Positions 13,933 to 20,895 of a DNA stretch of 64,000 bases are shown here, piece by piece. The notes under the pieces were generated by a model. The model saw only the letters and a program-made list of their open reading frames with translations. It did no database searches and was not told where the DNA came from. The DNA comes from Alphaproteobacteria bacterium. GTDB lineage: Bacteria; Pseudomonadota; Alphaproteobacteria; Ferrovibrionales; Ferrovibrionaceae. Where the stretch lies: contig JAFKFH010000009.1 of the NCBI GenBank assembly GCA_017307375.1, positions 186,001 to 250,000 on the forward strand, written 5' to 3'. Each line of letters opens with the position of its first letter. Position 1 is the stretch's first letter. The position numbers and the translations under genes are program-made.

Positions 13933-15909
13933 ATGCGCCCCGGATTCGAATTCCGCGTTCCCCATGTCGCCAATCCCACGGCCAATCCGTGGCTGCCCGA
14001 CTACCCGAACCCCGCGGACCTGCGGTTCAACTACTACAAGCTGATGAACGATGCCGGGGCCGTCGGGCAGCCGATCGCCCAGGCGCCGTCGGCGCTCAAC
14101 GCGCCGGTGGTCGCCGTGATCGGCGGGGGCGCGGCCGGCATGACCGCGGCGCGCGAGCTGTGGCGGGCCGGCTACAAGGTCATGATCTTCGAAGCGTCCA
14201 GCCGGATCAGCGGCCGGTTGTACACCGAAACCGCCGGCCCGGGGCTGACCGCCTATGAATTCGGGGCGATGCGCATGCCGTTCTTCAACGGCAGTGCCGG
14301 CACCGCGGCGCAGTCGACCAACTGCCTGCTGGCCTATTACCTGAACCAGGACCAGAACTACCCCGCCACGTCGAACGCGACATACGCCGACCTGGCCGAC
14401 TTTCCCAATCCGGGCAAGACCCCGGGCGGCACCGGCATCTACATGAACAACGGGGCCGGACCCAACGATGTCTACACTAGCCCGACCCTGATCGACTGGC
14501 CCGACAACGGCTTGCCGGCCAATGCCGACCTGCAGGCCATCGCCACCAAGGTCGACAATTTCATCACGCTGTTCACGACCTACGTCGCCTCGGCCTATAC
14601 CGGGTCGGACTGGGACACCGTCTGGCAGGAAATCGCGCAGAACTACGACAAGATGTCGTTCAGCGACCTCGTCTTCACCCCGGCGGTGACGACACCCGGA
14701 CCGAACAGCTGGCTGGGCGGCTTCGGCATGACCGACTACGAATCCAGCCTGTTCTACACGATCGGCGCCGGCGACGGCAGCTGGGGCGCCTTCTACGCGG
14801 TGGGGGCGATGTGGTTCATCCGCTGCGTGATGTTCGGATTCAATTCCGATCTGCAGCTGGTGTCCGGCCTGAACGACGCCAGCACGCTGCCCCACTACAA
14901 CGACGCCGGCGTCACCGACAACAACGGCAATCCGCTGACCCCGCCGCTGTTCCGCGGCATCCAGTCGCTGTCGGAGCTGCTGTTCTACCTGCCGCCGCCG
15001 GGTGCCGGCCAGTCGCTCTACGACGCGACCAAGGCCACGACCCTCGCGGCACCCAAGATCCACGTCAACGCGCCGGTGACCAGGATCCAGAAGGTGACCG
15101 TCAACAACGTCACCGGCCTGCAGATCCATGCCGGCAACAGCGGCACTCCGACCTTCGTCCACTATGCCATCGTCACGGCCCCGATCTGGGCCACGCAGCT
15201 GTCGATCGAGTTCGACGGATTCAGCAACGCCAACGACCTGCCGTGGCAGGTGACGACGGCAATGGCCGAGCAGCATCTGATCGCCAGTTGCAAGGTCTTC
15301 CTGCCGCTGACCCAGGCCTACTGGCAGGACGGGGCCAGCGCGATACCGCAGATCCTGGTGACCGATACCTTCGTCCAGGACGCCTACGGGCTGAGCTGGA
15401 GCGGCCAGCAGAACGATGCCGCCATCCTGGCCAGCTACACCTGGGAGGACGACGCGCTGAAACTGCTGGCGATGAACGATCAGGCGGTGATCCAGGCGGT
15501 GACCGCCAAGCTGAACGACATCACCACGTCGACCCTGAACAACTCCTTCGCGCAGTATGTCGACACGTCGCGGCAAGGCCAGGTCTTCCAGTGGACGATG
15601 CAGCCGACCTATCACGGGTGCGCCAAGCTCTACCGCCAGCGCAATTGGGAGCAGTGCTATGCGCTGATGACCTACAACCAGACCTACGCGGCGTCCTCGC
15701 ATCTCTACTTCGCCGGCGAATCCTACGGCACCGAGGGCGGCTGGACCGAACCGGCCTTGCGCATGGCCCTCGACGCGGTGATGAACCTCGTCAACAATTC
15801 GGGCGGCAGCTTCACCAATGCCGGCTTCAGCTTCGCCAACGATTATCCGGGCTTCATGACCGGCTTCACTCCGGACGAAAACTACCCCCAGAACAACGCC
15901 ACGGCGTGA
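13933..15909 (+). CDS. Flavin amine oxidase, L-amino-acid oxidase/monooxygenase type
   Basis: A 658-residue flavoprotein. The FAD-binding GxGxxG is at about residues 62-67 (VIGGGAAGMTAARELW) with the 'FEASSRISGR' continuation, and the C-terminal flavin contact is 'YFAGESYGTEGGWTEPALR'. The family oxidises amines or amino acids to imines with H2O2 release, or acts as a monooxygenase. The length and N-terminal extension resemble tryptophan or phenylalanine 2-monooxygenases and bacterial L-amino-acid oxidases. Asn/Thr/Gly are abundant and there is no Sec or Tat signal at the N-terminus. I chose ATG 13933 because GGAGAG lies 5 bp upstream. Its stop overlaps the start of the first of two glycosyltransferase genes. 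The substrate is unknown. Confidence 0.85.
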   Translation: MRPGFEFRVPHVANPTANPWLPDYPNPADLRFNYYKLMNDAGAVGQPIAQAPSALNAPVVAVIGGGAAGMTAARELWRAGYKVMIFEASSRISGRLYTETAGPGLTAYEFGAMRMPFFNGSAGTAAQSTNCLLAYYLNQDQNYPATSNATYADLADFPNPGKTPGGTGIYMNNGAGPNDVYTSPTLIDWPDNGLPANADLQAIATKVDNFITLFTTYVASAYTGSDWDTVWQEIAQNYDKMSFSDLVFTPAVTTPGPNSWLGGFGMTDYESSLFYTIGAGDGSWGAFYAVGAMWFIRCVMFGFNSDLQLVSGLNDASTLPHYNDAGVTDNNGNPLTPPLFRGIQSLSELLFYLPPPGAGQSLYDATKATTLAAPKIHVNAPVTRIQKVTVNNVTGLQIHAGNSGTPTFVHYAIVTAPIWATQLSIEFDGFSNANDLPWQVTTAMAEQHLIASCKVFLPLTQAYWQDGASAIPQILVTDTFVQDAYGLSWSGQQNDAAILASYTWEDDALKLLAMNDQAVIQAVTAKLNDITTSTLNNSFAQYVDTSRQGQVFQWTMQPTYHGCAKLYRQRNWEQCYALMTYNQTYAASSHLYFAGESYGTEGGWTEPALRMALDAVMNLVNNSGGSFTNAGFSFANDYPGFMTGFTPDENYPQNNATA

Positions 15910-17600
15910 GCAGCGGCATGACGGCCCCGCCGAACTGCGCGATCCACTACATTCCCGAAGCCTACCAGGGCGACAAGCGGGGTGTTGTGGGCCGCCAGTC
16001 GGCCGGGGCCGGGTTCCTCGACGCCCTGATCCGTCACGGTGGCGTCGATCGGCTGTACGGCGTCACCAACGACGCACGCCATGCCGCCGAATTTCGCGCC
16101 CGCATCGGCGCCGTCGACCCGGCCATGGCGGCGACCGTGCTGGATCCGTTCGACGCGCCGGCCATCGGCCGGGCCGGCTGCCTGTTCACCCCCGGGCCGC
16201 TGATCGCCGAAAGCGCCTGGATGCGGCGTTTCGGCGGCGAACGCAGCTACAGCCTGTGCGGCATCACCCATTCGGTCGCGACCGAGCGGGTGATCCGCAG
16301 CATCCGCGACGTGATGGTGGCGCCGACACAATGCTGGGACGCGCTGATCTGCACGTCGCAGGCGGCGCGTGCCGTCATCGGGCGCATCCTCGAGGTATGG
16401 ACCGACTATCTGGCAAGCCGGGGCTTCGCCGTGGGCCCCCAGCCGGTCCGGTTGCCGGTGATCCCGCTGGGGGTCCATGTCGACGACTTCGTGCGCGACG
16501 CGGCGGCGGCCGAGCGGGGCGCCGCGCTCCGGCAACGGCTGGGGGTCGAGCCCGACGACGTCGTGCTGCTGCATTTCGGGCGGCTCGATTTCCGGTCGAA
16601 GTCGCATCCGACGCCGTTGTTTCGCGCCGTCGACCTGGCGCGCCATCGCCATCGCCGCTCGCGGTTGCATCTGCTGATGGTCGGCCAGTTCGCCGACGCG
16701 CTGAACGCCCACGAGTTCCGCGTCGCCCAGCATCTCTACTGCCCGTCCGTCCCGGTACACTGGATCGATGGCGCGGATACCGAGCTGGCGCGGGCCGGCT
16801 GGACCGCGGCGGACATCTTCGTCTCGCTGTCGGACAATGTGCAGGAAAGCTTCGGCATGACCCCGGTCGAAGCGATGGCAGCCGGGCTGCCCGCCGTGGT
16901 CAGCGACTGGAACGGCTATCGCGAAACCGTCGTCGACGGCGAGACCGGCATCCGGATACCTACCATGTCGGCACCGGCCGGCGCCGGTATCGACCTCGCC
17001 GACGACCATGCCCAGCACCGCTTCGACCACTTCACGCTGATCGCCCATACCGCGCAGTCGACCGCCGTCGACATCGACGCCTGCGCCGAGGCGATTGCCC
17101 GGCTGGCCGGGGATGCGGCCTTGCGCCGCCGGATGGGGGAGGCCGGACGGCGACGCGCCGATACCATCTATGACTGGCGCCACATCATCGCGGCCTATCA
17201 GGCGCTGTGGCAGGACCTGGCAGCCAGCAGAAGCCGCGCGGCCGCGCTGGGCGAGCGCCGGGCCGGCCAGCACACCGTGCACCCCGACTATCCCGATCTG
17301 TTCGCGCTGTTCGCCGGCCATGCCGGCGCCCTGCTCGACGACGACATGATCGTCGGCTGGGCCGATGCCGACGCACCCTACGGGGTGCGGCGCAGCCGCC
17401 TGCTGCAGATCGACCTGTTTTCCGACCCCGTCACGCTCGATCAGCCGGCCATCGACCGGCTGGTCGACAGCCTGGCGGCGGGTCCGCGCCGGGTCGGCGA
17501 CGTCGCGGCCGATATCGGTCCCGCCGACCGCGCGCGGCTGCAACGCAGCCTGCTGCGGCTCTACAAGTTCGGCATCCTCAGGATCGGCAGCCGGCCATGA
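15906..17600 (+). CDS. Family 4-type glycosyltransferase with an extra C-terminal domain
   Basis: A 564-residue protein starting at GTG 15906, overlapping the oxidase stop; ATG 15918 is an alternative. The C-terminal half of the GT-B fold is clear: 'VLLHFGRLDF', 'LLMVGQF' and the nucleotide-sugar-binding 'SFGMTPVEAMAAGLPAVVSDWNGYRETVVDGETG' region (about residues 317-350). The tail from about 450 to 564 is not part of GT4 enzymes; its last 45 residues ('VGDVAADIGPADRARLQRSLLRLYKFGIL') look like a winged-helix fold. The stop overlaps the next glycosyltransferase start. Acceptor and sugar are unknown. Confidence 0.8.
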   Translation: MSSGMTAPPNCAIHYIPEAYQGDKRGVVGRQSAGAGFLDALIRHGGVDRLYGVTNDARHAAEFRARIGAVDPAMAATVLDPFDAPAIGRAGCLFTPGPLIAESAWMRRFGGERSYSLCGITHSVATERVIRSIRDVMVAPTQCWDALICTSQAARAVIGRILEVWTDYLASRGFAVGPQPVRLPVIPLGVHVDDFVRDAAAAERGAALRQRLGVEPDDVVLLHFGRLDFRSKSHPTPLFRAVDLARHRHRRSRLHLLMVGQFADALNAHEFRVAQHLYCPSVPVHWIDGADTELARAGWTAADIFVSLSDNVQESFGMTPVEAMAAGLPAVVSDWNGYRETVVDGETGIRIPTMSAPAGAGIDLADDHAQHRFDHFTLIAHTAQSTAVDIDACAEAIARLAGDAALRRRMGEAGRRRADTIYDWRHIIAAYQALWQDLAASRSRAAALGERRAGQHTVHPDYPDLFALFAGHAGALLDDDMIVGWADADAPYGVRRSRLLQIDLFSDPVTLDQPAIDRLVDSLAAGPRRVGDVAADIGPADRARLQRSLLRLYKFGILRIGSRP

Positions 17601-18607
17601 AGATCTGCTTCATCCTGGCGACCTATCAAAGCCACCGGCGCGCCGGGCTCGACTATCGGCGCGCCCTGGCCGCGGCCGGCGCGACGCTGGTCGAGGAGCC
17701 CGACAACGCCGACGTGGTCGTCATCCACGACGAACCCCAGACGTTGCTTGGCTATTACCGGGTCTATCCCGGCCTGCGACACCACCGCGTCATCGCCTAC
17801 ACGGTGTGGGAGCCGAGCTGCCTGAACGACGATCGCCGCCGCTGGCTCGGCCTGGTCGACGAGATCTGGACGGCATCGACCTTCTGCCGCGACATCCATG
17901 CCGGGCTGGGCAAGCCGGTGACCGTGATTCCGCATATCGTGGCGCCGGCCACGGTCGACGAGGCGGCGGACGCCCGGCTACGTGCCAGCCTTGGCCTGAC
18001 GGAAGGCGACTTCCTGTTCTACACGATCAGCCGGCAGGAGGAGCGCAAGAACCTCGAGGCGTCGCTACGGGCCTTTCATGCGGCCTTCCCCGACGGGCCG
18101 GCGCGATACATCGTCAAGACGCCGCTGCCCCTGCCGCCGGCGCTCGCCGGCCTGCCCGGGGTGGTCAACGTGACCGCGCGCCTCGACGACGACGAGATCG
18201 CCGCACTGCACCGCATCGGCCACTGCTATGTCAGCGCCCATTGCGCCGAAGGCTGGGGGCTGCCGCTCAGCGACGCGATGGCCCACGGCAGGCTGGTGAT
18301 CGCCACCGGCTACGGCGGCAACATGGATTTCATGGACGAAGGCAACTCGATGCCCGTCCGCTATCGCCTGGAACCGATTCGCCGGCCCGAGACGCGGGTT
18401 CGCTTCGGCTTCGCCCCCGACTCGACCGAGGCCCGGTGGGCCTATGTCGACGAGGATCACCTGGCCGCACGGATGGGGGGCGCCTTTGCCGACTGGGCGG
18501 TACGCGGTCCGATGCGCGACGCCGCCCGGCAGGCGATGACCCGCTATGACGAGGACACGATAGGCCGGCGCATGGTCGACCGGCTGCGGACGATCACCGG
18601 CATCTGA
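17597..18607 (+). CDS. GT4-like glycosyltransferase, last gene of the oxidase operon
   Basis: A 336-residue protein starting at ATG 17597, overlapping the previous stop. The GT-B C-terminal half is recognisable: 'FLFYTISRQEERKNLEASLRAF' (about residues 140-160) and 'SAHCAEGWGLPLSDAMAHGRLVIATGYGGNMDF' (about 215-245), with the Glu/Gly loop that binds the nucleotide sugar. The N-terminal half is short. Together with the two genes before it this makes a three-gene unit in which every junction overlaps by 4 bp, so the products are probably made in fixed ratio. Whether the glycan is put on the oxidase or on something else cannot be seen. Confidence 0.8.
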   Translation: MKICFILATYQSHRRAGLDYRRALAAAGATLVEEPDNADVVVIHDEPQTLLGYYRVYPGLRHHRVIAYTVWEPSCLNDDRRRWLGLVDEIWTASTFCRDIHAGLGKPVTVIPHIVAPATVDEAADARLRASLGLTEGDFLFYTISRQEERKNLEASLRAFHAAFPDGPARYIVKTPLPLPPALAGLPGVVNVTARLDDDEIAALHRIGHCYVSAHCAEGWGLPLSDAMAHGRLVIATGYGGNMDFMDEGNSMPVRYRLEPIRRPETRVRFGFAPDSTEARWAYVDEDHLAARMGGAFADWAVRGPMRDAARQAMTRYDEDTIGRRMVDRLRTITGI

Positions 18608-18664: not shown

Positions 18665-18757
18665 GGCGGCGTCGGGGTAACGCAGGCTCCCGGCTGATCG
18701 AAGGCGGGCGACCGTCCAAGCTCTGCTCGAACTCGCACGACCCGAGGTTTGAGCATC

Positions 18758-19552
18758 ATGGACGCTACCGCCGTCTCCCCCCGCAGTCTTTACGCCATGA
18801 TCGGACGCGCCGACGCACCGCTGATCATCGATGTCCGGCGCCGGCCCGCCTTTGCCGCCGATCCCCGCCTGATCGTCGGCGCGGAACGATGCCCGCCCGA
18901 GGATGTCGCAGCCTCGGCCGATGCCCTGGCGGCCGACGGCCCGATCATCGTCTATTGCGTCCACGGCCACGCCGTCAGCCAGGGCGTGGCGGCGGCACTA
19001 CGCGCCGCCGGGCGGCAGGCCGCGATCCTCGAAGGCGGCATCGCCGCCTGGACGGCCTGCGGCCTGCCGACGCGCCGGCACGACACCGGGGCGAACGGCC
19101 CTTGGGTGACGCGCGAGCGCCCCAAGGTCGACCGCATCGCCTGTCCGTGGCTGATCCGCCGCTTCATCGATCGCCGGGCAGAAATCGTCTATGTGCCGGC
19201 AGCCGAGGTGCCGGCCGTCGCCGCCCGGCTCGGCGGCACGGCCTACGACATTCCCGATGTCGAATTCTCGCACCACGGCCCGGCCTGCAGTTTCGATGCC
19301 TTCATCCGGATCTTCGCGATTGCCGATCCCGCGCTCGACCATCTGGCGCGCATCGTGCGCGGGGCGGATACCGGGGACCTGGGGCTGACGCCGCAATCGG
19401 CCGGGCTGCTGGCCTTCTCGCTCGGCCTGTCGGCCGGTTTTCCCGATGACCACGCAATGCTGGAACACGGCATGACCTTCTACGACGCCCTCTACGCCTG
19501 GTGCCGCGACGGCCGGGCGGAAACCCACGGCTGGCCGCCGGTGCGGGCATGA
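18758..19552 (+). CDS. chrB: Rhodanese-ChrB fusion, chromate resistance protein
   Basis: A 264-residue protein. Residues 1-105 are a rhodanese domain with the active-site loop CVHGHA (Cys at about residue 68) and the 'GGIAAW' end. Residues of about 118-260 are the ChrB C-terminal domain ('KVDRIACPWLIRRFID', 'FSHHGPACSFDAFI'). ChrB proteins act as chromate-responsive regulators or accessory factors for ChrA; in the rhodanese form a role in sulfur or chromate reduction is suggested. GAGG at 18744-18747 precedes ATG 18758 by 10 bp. The stop overlaps chrA (ATGA), so the two are coupled. Confidence 0.85.
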   Translation: MDATAVSPRSLYAMIGRADAPLIIDVRRRPAFAADPRLIVGAERCPPEDVAASADALAADGPIIVYCVHGHAVSQGVAAALRAAGRQAAILEGGIAAWTACGLPTRRHDTGANGPWVTRERPKVDRIACPWLIRRFIDRRAEIVYVPAAEVPAVAARLGGTAYDIPDVEFSHHGPACSFDAFIRIFAIADPALDHLARIVRGADTGDLGLTPQSAGLLAFSLGLSAGFPDDHAMLEHGMTFYDALYAWCRDGRAETHGWPPVRA

Positions 19553-20895
19553 GACACGGGGTTTCCTGGCGCGAGGCGCTGATCACCTGGGGCCGCGTCG
19601 CCCTGCTCTCCTTCGGCGGGCCGGCCGGCCAGATCGCGGTGATGCATCGCATCGTCGTCGAGGAAAAGCGGTGGATCGGCGAAAGCCGTTTCCTGCACGC
19701 CCTGAACTACTGCATGCTGCTGCCCGGGCCGGAGGCACAGCAACTGGCCGTCTATATCGGCTGGCTGATGCACCGCACGCTCGGCGGCCTGGTCGCCGGC
19801 ATCCTGTTCGTGCTGCCCGGCGCCGCCGCGATCATGGCGCTCAGCATCGTCTATGCCGTCTACGGCGCGGTCGGTGCGGTGCAGGCCCTGTTCTTCGGGC
19901 TGAAGGCCGCGGTGCTCGCCGTCGTCGTCGAGGCGGTGCTCCGCATCGGGCGGCGCGCGCTGCGCAACCGCACCATGGTCGCCCTGGCCGCGGCCGCCTT
20001 CCTCGCCATCTTCGTGGTGGGCGTGCCGTTTCCCTGGATCATCGTCGCCGCGGGTCTTGCCGGCTATCTCGGCCATCGCCTGGGCCTGGCCGGGTTTCAG
20101 CCGGCGGGCGCGCATGGCCCTTCTGCCGGGCATGGCCTTGCCGAAGGCCAGTCGCGGCTGGGCGAGGCGACACCCGAGCATTGCCGACCGTCGGGCCGCC
20201 GGCTCGCCCTGGTGCTGGCGATTGCGCTGCCGCTGTGGCTGGTGCCGGTGGCGGTGGCACTGGGCACCGGCAGCGTCTTTGCCGATATCGGCCTGTTCTT
20301 CTCCAAGATGGCCGTCGTCACCTTCGGCGGCGCCTATGCCGTGCTGGCCTATGTCGCGCAAGAAGCGGTGCAGGCGTATGGCTGGCTGCGGCCCGGCGAA
20401 ATGCTCGATGGGCTGGGCATGGCCGAGACCACGCCGGGACCGCTGATCATGGTGCTGCAGTTCGTCGGCTTCATGGCGGCGTTCCGCACGCCCGGCGCGC
20501 TCGATCCGCTGGTGGCCGGCATCCTCGGCGGCCTGATGACCACCTGGGTCACCTTCGTTCCCTGCTTCATGTTCATCTTCGCCGGCGGCCCCTATATCGA
20601 GGCATTGCGCGGCAACCGGGCACTCGGCGCCGCGTTATCGGCAATCACCGCCGCGGTGGTCGGGATCATTCTCAATCTCGCGGTCTGGTTCGCCCTGCAC
20701 ACGATGTTCGGCGAGGTGGCGGCGGTACCCCACCTGGCGCTCGAACTGCCGGTATGGTCGAGCCTGGATCCCTGGGCCCTGGCCCTGGCGGCGGGTGCGA
20801 TGCTGGCGCTGTTCCGGCTGCGGCTGGGGCTGATCGCGACACTGGCCCTGTGCGCCGCGGCCGGTGTCGCGCTACATCTGCTGGGATTGCGGTAA
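19549..20895 (+). CDS. chrA: Chromate transporter ChrA
   Basis: A 448-residue inner-membrane protein with two homologous CHR halves. The first begins with 'SWREALITWGRVALLSFGGPAGQIAVMHR', a conserved CHR motif, and contains 'LPGPEAQQLAVYIGW'. The second starts near residue 240 with 'FSKMAVVTFGGAYAVLAYVAQEAV' and 'AETTPGPLIMVLQFVGF'. ChrA uses the proton-motive force to export chromate, keeping it out of sulfate-using pathways. About ten to twelve membrane spans are visible, with a cytoplasmic loop at about 180-220. The gene is coupled to chrB and followed 16 bp later by a gene for a secreted protein. Confidence 0.92.
   Translation: MRHGVSWREALITWGRVALLSFGGPAGQIAVMHRIVVEEKRWIGESRFLHALNYCMLLPGPEAQQLAVYIGWLMHRTLGGLVAGILFVLPGAAAIMALSIVYAVYGAVGAVQALFFGLKAAVLAVVVEAVLRIGRRALRNRTMVALAAAAFLAIFVVGVPFPWIIVAAGLAGYLGHRLGLAGFQPAGAHGPSAGHGLAEGQSRLGEATPEHCRPSGRRLALVLAIALPLWLVPVAVALGTGSVFADIGLFFSKMAVVTFGGAYAVLAYVAQEAVQAYGWLRPGEMLDGLGMAETTPGPLIMVLQFVGFMAAFRTPGALDPLVAGILGGLMTTWVTFVPCFMFIFAGGPYIEALRGNRALGAALSAITAAVVGIILNLAVWFALHTMFGEVAAVPHLALELPVWSSLDPWALALAAGAMLALFRLRLGLIATLALCAAAGVALHLLGLR

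Follow-up and report, generated by a model that had tools for sequence, protein, structure and literature searches.

A rare three-gene unit joins a predicted amino-acid monooxygenase or oxidase to two glycosyltransferases of the GT4 type

Why should the gene for a flavin amine oxidase be followed directly by two glycosyltransferase genes? The question is raised by a stretch of 64,000 nucleotides (the window) from contig JAFKFH010000009.1, positions 186,001 to 250,000, of the alphaproteobacterial assembly GCA_017307375.1 (family Ferrovibrionaceae), in which three co-directional genes, here called OX (the oxidase), GT1 and GT2 (the glycosyltransferases), form a tight unit at 13933-18607. A preliminary description of this DNA had taken the three genes for one unit, and this stands: they share one direction and close spacing, and the trio is kept in a few other genomes. 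OX-GT1-GT2 is a real, rare three-gene unit. OX itself is a new member of a known enzyme kind, with a role better supported than the one first suggested for it; that it comes together with a GT4 pair is a new, unexplained variant. The explanation favored here combines a monooxygenase-amidase-ligase route that would begin with OX and a modification of OX by GT1 and GT2; as a whole it is tentative, with a probability of about 0.45.

OX matches the Pfam family Amino_oxidase (PF01593) above its cut-off (E 3.2e-27). Its closest relative of solved structure, by sequence and by fold alike, is tryptophan 2-monooxygenase 4iv9 (E 1.2e-24 in each comparison), and fold matches two to four are entries for the L-amino acid oxidase/monooxygenase of Pseudomonas AIU 813 (3we0, 5yb6; 17-18% structural-alignment identity). 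Among the NCBIfam matches listed (25 of 45 for OX), no model reached its cut-off for OX, GT1 or GT2. The predicted OX model, built from a 14-row alignment, has a mean predicted local distance difference test score (pLDDT) of 72.7 and a predicted template modelling score (pTM) of 0.81. Arg114, the arginine of the EFGAMRMP motif, is present in all 14 aligned rows, as are Lys454, YTWEDD and the C-terminal GGW/AGW motif. We take Arg98 of tryptophan 2-monooxygenase, the counterpart of Arg114, to bind the carboxylate, and the C-terminal motif GESYGTEGGWTEP presumably has a role in binding flavin adenine dinucleotide (FAD) or substrate. According to a title in the reference list of PMC4699246, Arg98 of tryptophan 2-monooxygenase is an active-site residue. 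With these conserved residues and motifs OX appears to have the equipment needed to act on a free alpha-amino acid, and it looks like an enzyme that acts on a free L-amino acid. The preliminary assignment to an amino-acid-type oxidase was therefore sound, given the invariant Arg114 and the nature of the best solved relatives. A LodA-like quinone oxidase was also considered and rejected, the Pfam matches of OX being to amine-oxidase and nucleotide-binding families only.

The distribution of the trio was followed beyond the window, as had been proposed at the outset. A pattern-based scan for OX in a collection of species genomes gave 91 relatives, of which 80 loci were kept, some with short flanks; both glycosyltransferase genes are present in three of the 80, those of Aquibium, Mesorhizobium zhangyense and Salinarimonas rosea. 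Seven genomes form the set with a close OX (at least 46% identity): the window's own, G005 from the same family, the three just named, Variovorax boronicumulans and a Pseudomonadales metagenome-assembled genome (MAG). The trio is complete in four of these seven, the window included, the contig ends within or after the start of GT1 in one (G005), and the glycosyltransferase genes are missing in two. In a class sample of 385 genomes, two have OX at E 1e-50: that of the window and one with a 40% relative, in whose 4,950-base locus no GT1 or GT2 match is present. At E 1e-40, GT2 was found in the window's own genome alone among 398 genomes of the phylum, and GT1 relatives were found in 48 of the 385 class genomes. 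On these counts (48 versus two of 385), the idea of a fixed partnership between OX and the wider GT1 family was rejected.

The OX, GT1 and GT2 trees each pair Aquibium with Salinarimonas (supports 94/96, 100/100 and 100/100, respectively) and set Mesorhizobium apart. Aquibium and Mesorhizobium belong to one family and Salinarimonas to another, so the pairing departs from taxonomy in all three trees, and this common departure suggests that OX, GT1 and GT2 were transferred jointly. Variovorax falls within the trio-bearing group of the midpoint-rooted OX tree (95/97 for the group without G005, 82/80 for the place of G005), a position that suggests loss of the glycosyltransferase genes in Variovorax. 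In the GT1 and GT2 trees the sister of the window is Azospirillum sp. B510 (100/97 and 97/95).

GT1 and GT2 both match the Pfam family Glycos_transf_1 (E 6.2e-18 for GT1). The predicted GT1 model has a mean pLDDT of 85.5, and its fold neighbors include GlgM, PimB', BshA and MshA. These GT4 enzymes have the Pfam family, the fold and the E-x7-E motif in common with GT1, which differs from them by an extra C-terminal extension and by its pairing with GT2. GT2 is 51-54% identical to four relatives; its Glycos_transf_1 match lies above the cut-off in the window and in B510 and below it in Mesorhizobium, and the second glutamate of its E-x7-E is an aspartate in four of five rows and a glutamate in B510. 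From these matches, the GT1 fold, the synteny and the grouping common to the trees, GT1 and GT2 are a predicted cytoplasmic GT4-type pair that travels with OX. Elsewhere, in a genome of the same class (locus L133, 6977-9924), a GT1 relative and a different gene of the amine-oxidase family (PF01593, E 1e-49) share 4 bp; blastp at 1e-8 did not match the latter to OX.

An indication of what OX may do comes from the gene neighborhoods of its relatives. Just 5' of OX in Variovorax lie genes for a urea/branched-chain-type ATP-binding cassette (ABC) transporter, an amidase (PF01425, 504 aa) and an AMP-binding acyl-coenzyme A (CoA) ligase (551 aa). Mesorhizobium and Salinarimonas have the matching transporter, an amidase 68-69% and a ligase 63-65% identical to those of Variovorax, in the cluster of the trio and divergent from it; the cluster further holds flotillin and AmiC-like binding protein genes, with a MarR gene on the strand of the trio. 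The Aquibium trio is at a contig end, next to genes for the binding protein, flotillin, the AmiC-like protein and MarR; the genes for amidase and ligase are found where another contig ends, which is compatible with a broken assembly and is no proof of one. G005 has its amidase, transporter, AmiC-like and MarR genes on a contig other than that of OX. In sum, the amidase gene lies with OX in three of the seven close-OX genomes, on another contig in three (window, Aquibium and G005) and has no match in one. Matches to the Variovorax amidase at E 1e-204 or better occur in five of the six other close-OX genomes, and at E 1e-180 in 25 of a class sample of 289 genomes, the window's included; this sample is the background for the genomes other than Variovorax and the MAG, both of which are outside the class by their record names. 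In several genomes a flotillin-like gene (PF15975 in L013) stands between the urea-type ABC transporter genes and the gene for the AmiC-like binding protein (L013, 4020-7681; L166, 16465-19317).

A set of 78 loci (L014-L091) is mostly of Pseudomonas, with OX at 32-37% identity. A homologue of a CN_hydrolase gene is present in 72 of them and one of an asparaginase-family gene in 57; the reference genes are those 3' of OX in L026 and L023, where alone adjacency was read, and part of the 78 loci are too short to show it. Upstream of OX, L023 also has a gene for a protein of 410 aa that matches no Pfam family, and a homologue of it occurs in 72 of the 78.

Taken together, the amidase, ligase and transporter cluster and the nitrilase-family neighbors of the relatives favor an amide-forming monooxygenase over an H2O2-producing weapon, and OX is most likely an amide-forming amino-acid monooxygenase. 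For the antimicrobial or nitrogen-scavenging role through H2O2 that had been put forward for the oxidase, no support was found. In the proposed route OX, a predicted cytoplasmic FAD enzyme of the tryptophan 2-monooxygenase and L-amino-acid oxidase/monooxygenase type, would most likely convert one free L-amino acid to an amide one carbon shorter and CO2. The amidase would then release the carboxylic acid and ammonia from the amide, the acyl-CoA ligase would presumably follow in activating the acid, and the amide/urea-type ABC transporter may import a substrate. In the weakest step of the proposal, GT1 and GT2 would modify the product of their neighboring gene, OX. If correct, a so far unassigned flavoenzyme family, seen here in about 70 Pseudomonas loci and with scattered members in other Pseudomonadota, gains a concrete, testable reaction in place of the label 'amine oxidase'.

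Parts of this route have precedents. Tryptophan 2-monooxygenase, IaaM, is followed by the amidase IaaH as the next step from amino acid to amide to acid, and an amidase gene is clustered with OX in three relatives. The differences on the OX side are the two glycosyltransferases and, in the clusters of the relatives, the CoA ligase and ABC transporter. A plain indole-acetic-acid operon was rejected: plasmid iaaM genes share about 24% identity over 60% of OX, and the amidase, whose closest solved relative is 3a1k (listed as 'Amidase'), passes NCBIfam model NF005565 (799 bits, cut-off 545) and fails that for indoleacetamide hydrolase (211 bits, cut-off 532). Lysine 2-monooxygenase and 5-aminovaleramidase, DavB and DavA, follow in outline the same established logic of amino acid, amide and acid, and the Pseudomonas OX relatives similarly lie by a nitrilase-family gene; there is no evidence for lysine as the substrate of OX. 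Antimicrobial, H2O2-forming FAD L-amino acid oxidases, as covered in PMC4699246, have their fold family in common with OX, for which no secretion or biofilm context was seen and the context suggests an amide pathway.

The choice of OX as the target of GT1 and GT2 follows from its composition and from a protein of similar make-up encoded beside the Azospirillum pair. Among the 48 window genes of at least 150 aa called by a home-made gene finder, OX has the highest Asn (7.1%) and Thr (8.8%) contents and the lowest content of Lys and Arg (4.1%). Its Gly content (8.5%) exceeds that of 24 of the 48, so that an earlier characterization as rich in Asn, Thr and Gly is right for the first two residues and not for the third. 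That the protein lacks a signal peptide was noted correctly, the top 15-residue hydropathy within its first 60 residues being 0.65. Lys and Arg make up 4.6-6.9% of four glycosyltransferase-linked OX relatives, 7.5% and 7.7% of the Variovorax and MAG proteins, which lack the linked genes, and 8.5-11.2% of five Pseudomonas relatives. Plasmid pAB510e of Azospirillum sp. B510 carries the same glycosyltransferase pair (60% identity for GT1, 54% for GT2) with no OX adjoining; 277 bp on is a gene for a 437-aa protein (L123, 12035-13345) with 14.6% Asn, 3.7% Lys and Arg, no Pfam match and, by eye, no signal peptide. Plasmid records gave no OX match covering more than 80% of the query, in a search that did not take in the B510 chromosome. 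Weak relatives of the 437-aa protein (about 25%) are encoded on two other Azospirillum plasmids. The B510 locus suggests that the pair is able to work with a partner other than OX.

Genes with RTX repeats provide a further parallel. They are present in six of 20 GT1-family loci and one of 40 control stretches (one of two tests; one-sided Fisher p 0.004, without correction). The six loci are not independent of one another, as L129 and L147 share a genome whose genus also supplied L128, and three of the 19 GT1 genomes are without a control stretch. In one plasmid locus a GT1 relative and a second glycosyltransferase gene have type I secretion genes on one side and, on the other, the gene for a calcium-binding protein of 2166 aa. 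A broader test, for Lys/Arg-poor, polar-rich or RTX genes near GT1, gave seven of 20 against seven of 40 (p 0.12). These neighborhood counts are approximate, the gene finder dropping and misplacing genes: it left GT1 uncalled in two of the 20 loci picked for GT1, and an early version overlooked the GT1 gene of the window.

The composition of OX, the B510 protein and the RTX loci fit transferases that act on polar proteins encoded nearby and lacking signals. Were the pair to act on OX, a metabolic enzyme would, unusually, have glycosyltransferases of its own. The generalized form, in which GT1 and GT2 would be a dedicated cytoplasmic protein-glycosylation pair for a signal-less, Asn/Thr-rich and Lys/Arg-poor neighbor, whether a flavoenzyme, the Asn-rich Azospirillum protein or RTX-type proteins, is decidedly improbable. 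If true, it would constitute a new kind of neighbor-directed protein glycosylation in bacteria and, to our knowledge, the first instance of such glycosylation aimed at a metabolic flavoenzyme. Two known mechanisms were rejected. N-glycosylation through NxS/T sequons was dismissed: five glycosyltransferase-linked OX proteins have 7-10 of them versus 1-5 in seven others, and, by hand calculation, the Asn and Ser/Thr contents of the window OX lead one to expect about the seven that it has. Accessory-Sec glycosylation of serine-rich adhesins uses GtfA and GtfB; there is no serine-rich repeat substrate beside the GT1/GT2 pair, OX being an enzyme by its fold with a Ser content of 5.9%, in a comparison that made no search for SecA2/SecY2.

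Several observations weigh against the proposal as a whole or in part. The confidence of the OX model is middling, and the available sequence cannot separate oxidase from monooxygenase activity. According to PMC4699246, the balance of the two activities in one enzyme can change with substrate or mutation. Variovorax and the MAG hold OX (58% and 46% identity) and have no match to GT1 (E 1e-20) or GT2 (E 1e-10) anywhere in their genomes, so the glycosyltransferases are dispensable for the enzyme as such. No amidase or ligase gene is near the trio in the window; in the same genome the ligase, amidase, transporter, flotillin and AmiC-like genes are on contig C10 and the trio is on C13. The MAG has no amidase match at E 1e-60, and the amidase is also found in 24 class genomes without an OX at E 1e-50, and is thus independent of OX. 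The three trees have four taxa in common and so only one split in which they can agree. The Asn/Thr-rich make-up tracks the phylogeny of OX, the Variovorax protein being Asn/Thr-rich too without the glycosyltransferases. As for the glycosylation step, housekeeping genes surround several of the GT1 relatives, and a general scan of open reading frames and Pfam matches recognized no export genes beside the trio in the window. Neither plasmid relative of the B510 protein has an annotated glycosyltransferase alongside, which weakens the notion of a partner swap. Glycosylation of the oxidase, one of the earlier suggestions, thus gains from the odd composition and the Azospirillum parallel and loses from the two genomes that have OX and no such transferases.

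Much of the same evidence bears on an exported enzyme. OX might be an exported or surface H2O2-forming L-amino-acid oxidase that GT1 and GT2 glycosylate before signal-less export, for use in competition or nitrogen scavenging. Its extreme composition among the 48 window genes, the absence of a Sec-type signal, the Asn-rich signal-less protein beside the B510 pair and the excess of RTX genes near the GT1 family all suit such an enzyme. It is nevertheless unlikely: the missing export genes, the broader test and the interdependence of the six RTX loci, the composition-level sequon count and the plasmid relatives without a transferase speak against it, and relatives that sit with an amidase and a CoA ligase suggest an internal pathway. 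Glycosylation could instead fall on a small molecule derived from what OX makes, such as the acid freed by the amidase, which would become a glycoside. This seems quite improbable, since the unit has no further tailoring gene and the pair also occurs without a neighboring OX, even though MshA and BshA, fold neighbors of GT1, act on small acceptors and the OX-GT1-GT2 order is tight. The GT1 relatives next to RTX, TPR or polysaccharide genes also disagree with a small-molecule role, although others lie among housekeeping genes.

In a further alternative the pair would have no functional tie to OX at all, and ordinary surface or polysaccharide transferases would have come to share a cassette with it. 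GT1 relatives are common in the class, several of them standing alone or in polysaccharide loci, and OX and the pair each occur without the other nearby. The grouping that breaks with taxonomy in all three trees, the 4-bp GT1/GT2 overlap in all four complete trios and the short OX-GT1 spacing make an unrelated cassette a rather unlikely explanation; they point to joint transfer and joint transcription and are no proof of joint function. The earlier statement that no system of this make-up had been described agrees with the open-access literature, in which no description of an oxidase with two such glycosyltransferases was found among titles and opening lines of abstracts; this is a weak claim, few searches having been aimed there and subscription journals being largely outside the scope.

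The coordinates of the unit are given in Table 1. The preliminary description had all three genes overlapping by 4 bp. This is exact for GT1 and GT2 (ATGA, 17597-17600); for OX and GT1 it requires the GTG start (GTGA, 15906-15909), and the ATG start leaves an 8-bp gap. The other three complete trios likewise have a 4-bp GT1/GT2 overlap, ATGA in one and GTGA in two, where a GTG start of GT2 is presumed. Their OX-GT1 gaps are 7, 10 and 34 bp, and that of G005 is 36 bp, with starts as chosen by the gene finder.

Table 1. Positions in the window of the three genes and of their principal motifs
Feature	Position	Strand	Basis
OX, flavin amine-oxidase family, probable L-amino-acid 2-monooxygenase/oxidase, 658 aa	13933..15909	+	Pfam PF01593; 4iv9 by sequence and fold
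G-x-G-x-x-G loop of OX, presumably FAD-binding, residues 64-69	14122..14139	+	Pattern in 14/14 aligned rows
EFGAMRMP of OX, residues 109-116	14257..14280	+	Arg114 aligned to residue 98 of the 4iv9 chain
GESYGTEGGWTEP, C-terminal motif of OX, residues 595-607	15715..15753	+	OX alignment
GT1, GT4-type glycosyltransferase; GTG start 15906 or ATG 15918 (560 aa)	15906..17600	+	Pfam, fold neighbors
Glu310 and Glu318 of GT1, taken to be the E-x7-E motif	16845..16871	+	Both Glu invariant in 12/12 aligned rows
C-terminal extension of GT1, about residues 441-560 (about 120 residues)	17238..17597	+	Mostly helical in model; no Pfam match
GT2, second GT4-type glycosyltransferase, 336 aa	17597..18607	+	Pfam PF00534, E 4.5e-9

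The surroundings of the trio differ between genomes. Seven proteins encoded next to the Mesorhizobium trio were compared with the window, and an ABC ATPase alone was matched, at 26-30% identity, the level of any ATPase; the other six have no counterpart there. In the MAG, the gene after OX encodes a protein of 2232 aa that combines kinase, AAA, GAF, histidine kinase and receiver domains (L079, 9588-16283). In the window, genes for a VTT-domain protein and a hybrid histidine kinase lie 5' of the trio, and directly 3' of it, on the same strand, are those for a rhodanese/ChrB-C protein and a chromate transporter (18749-20895).

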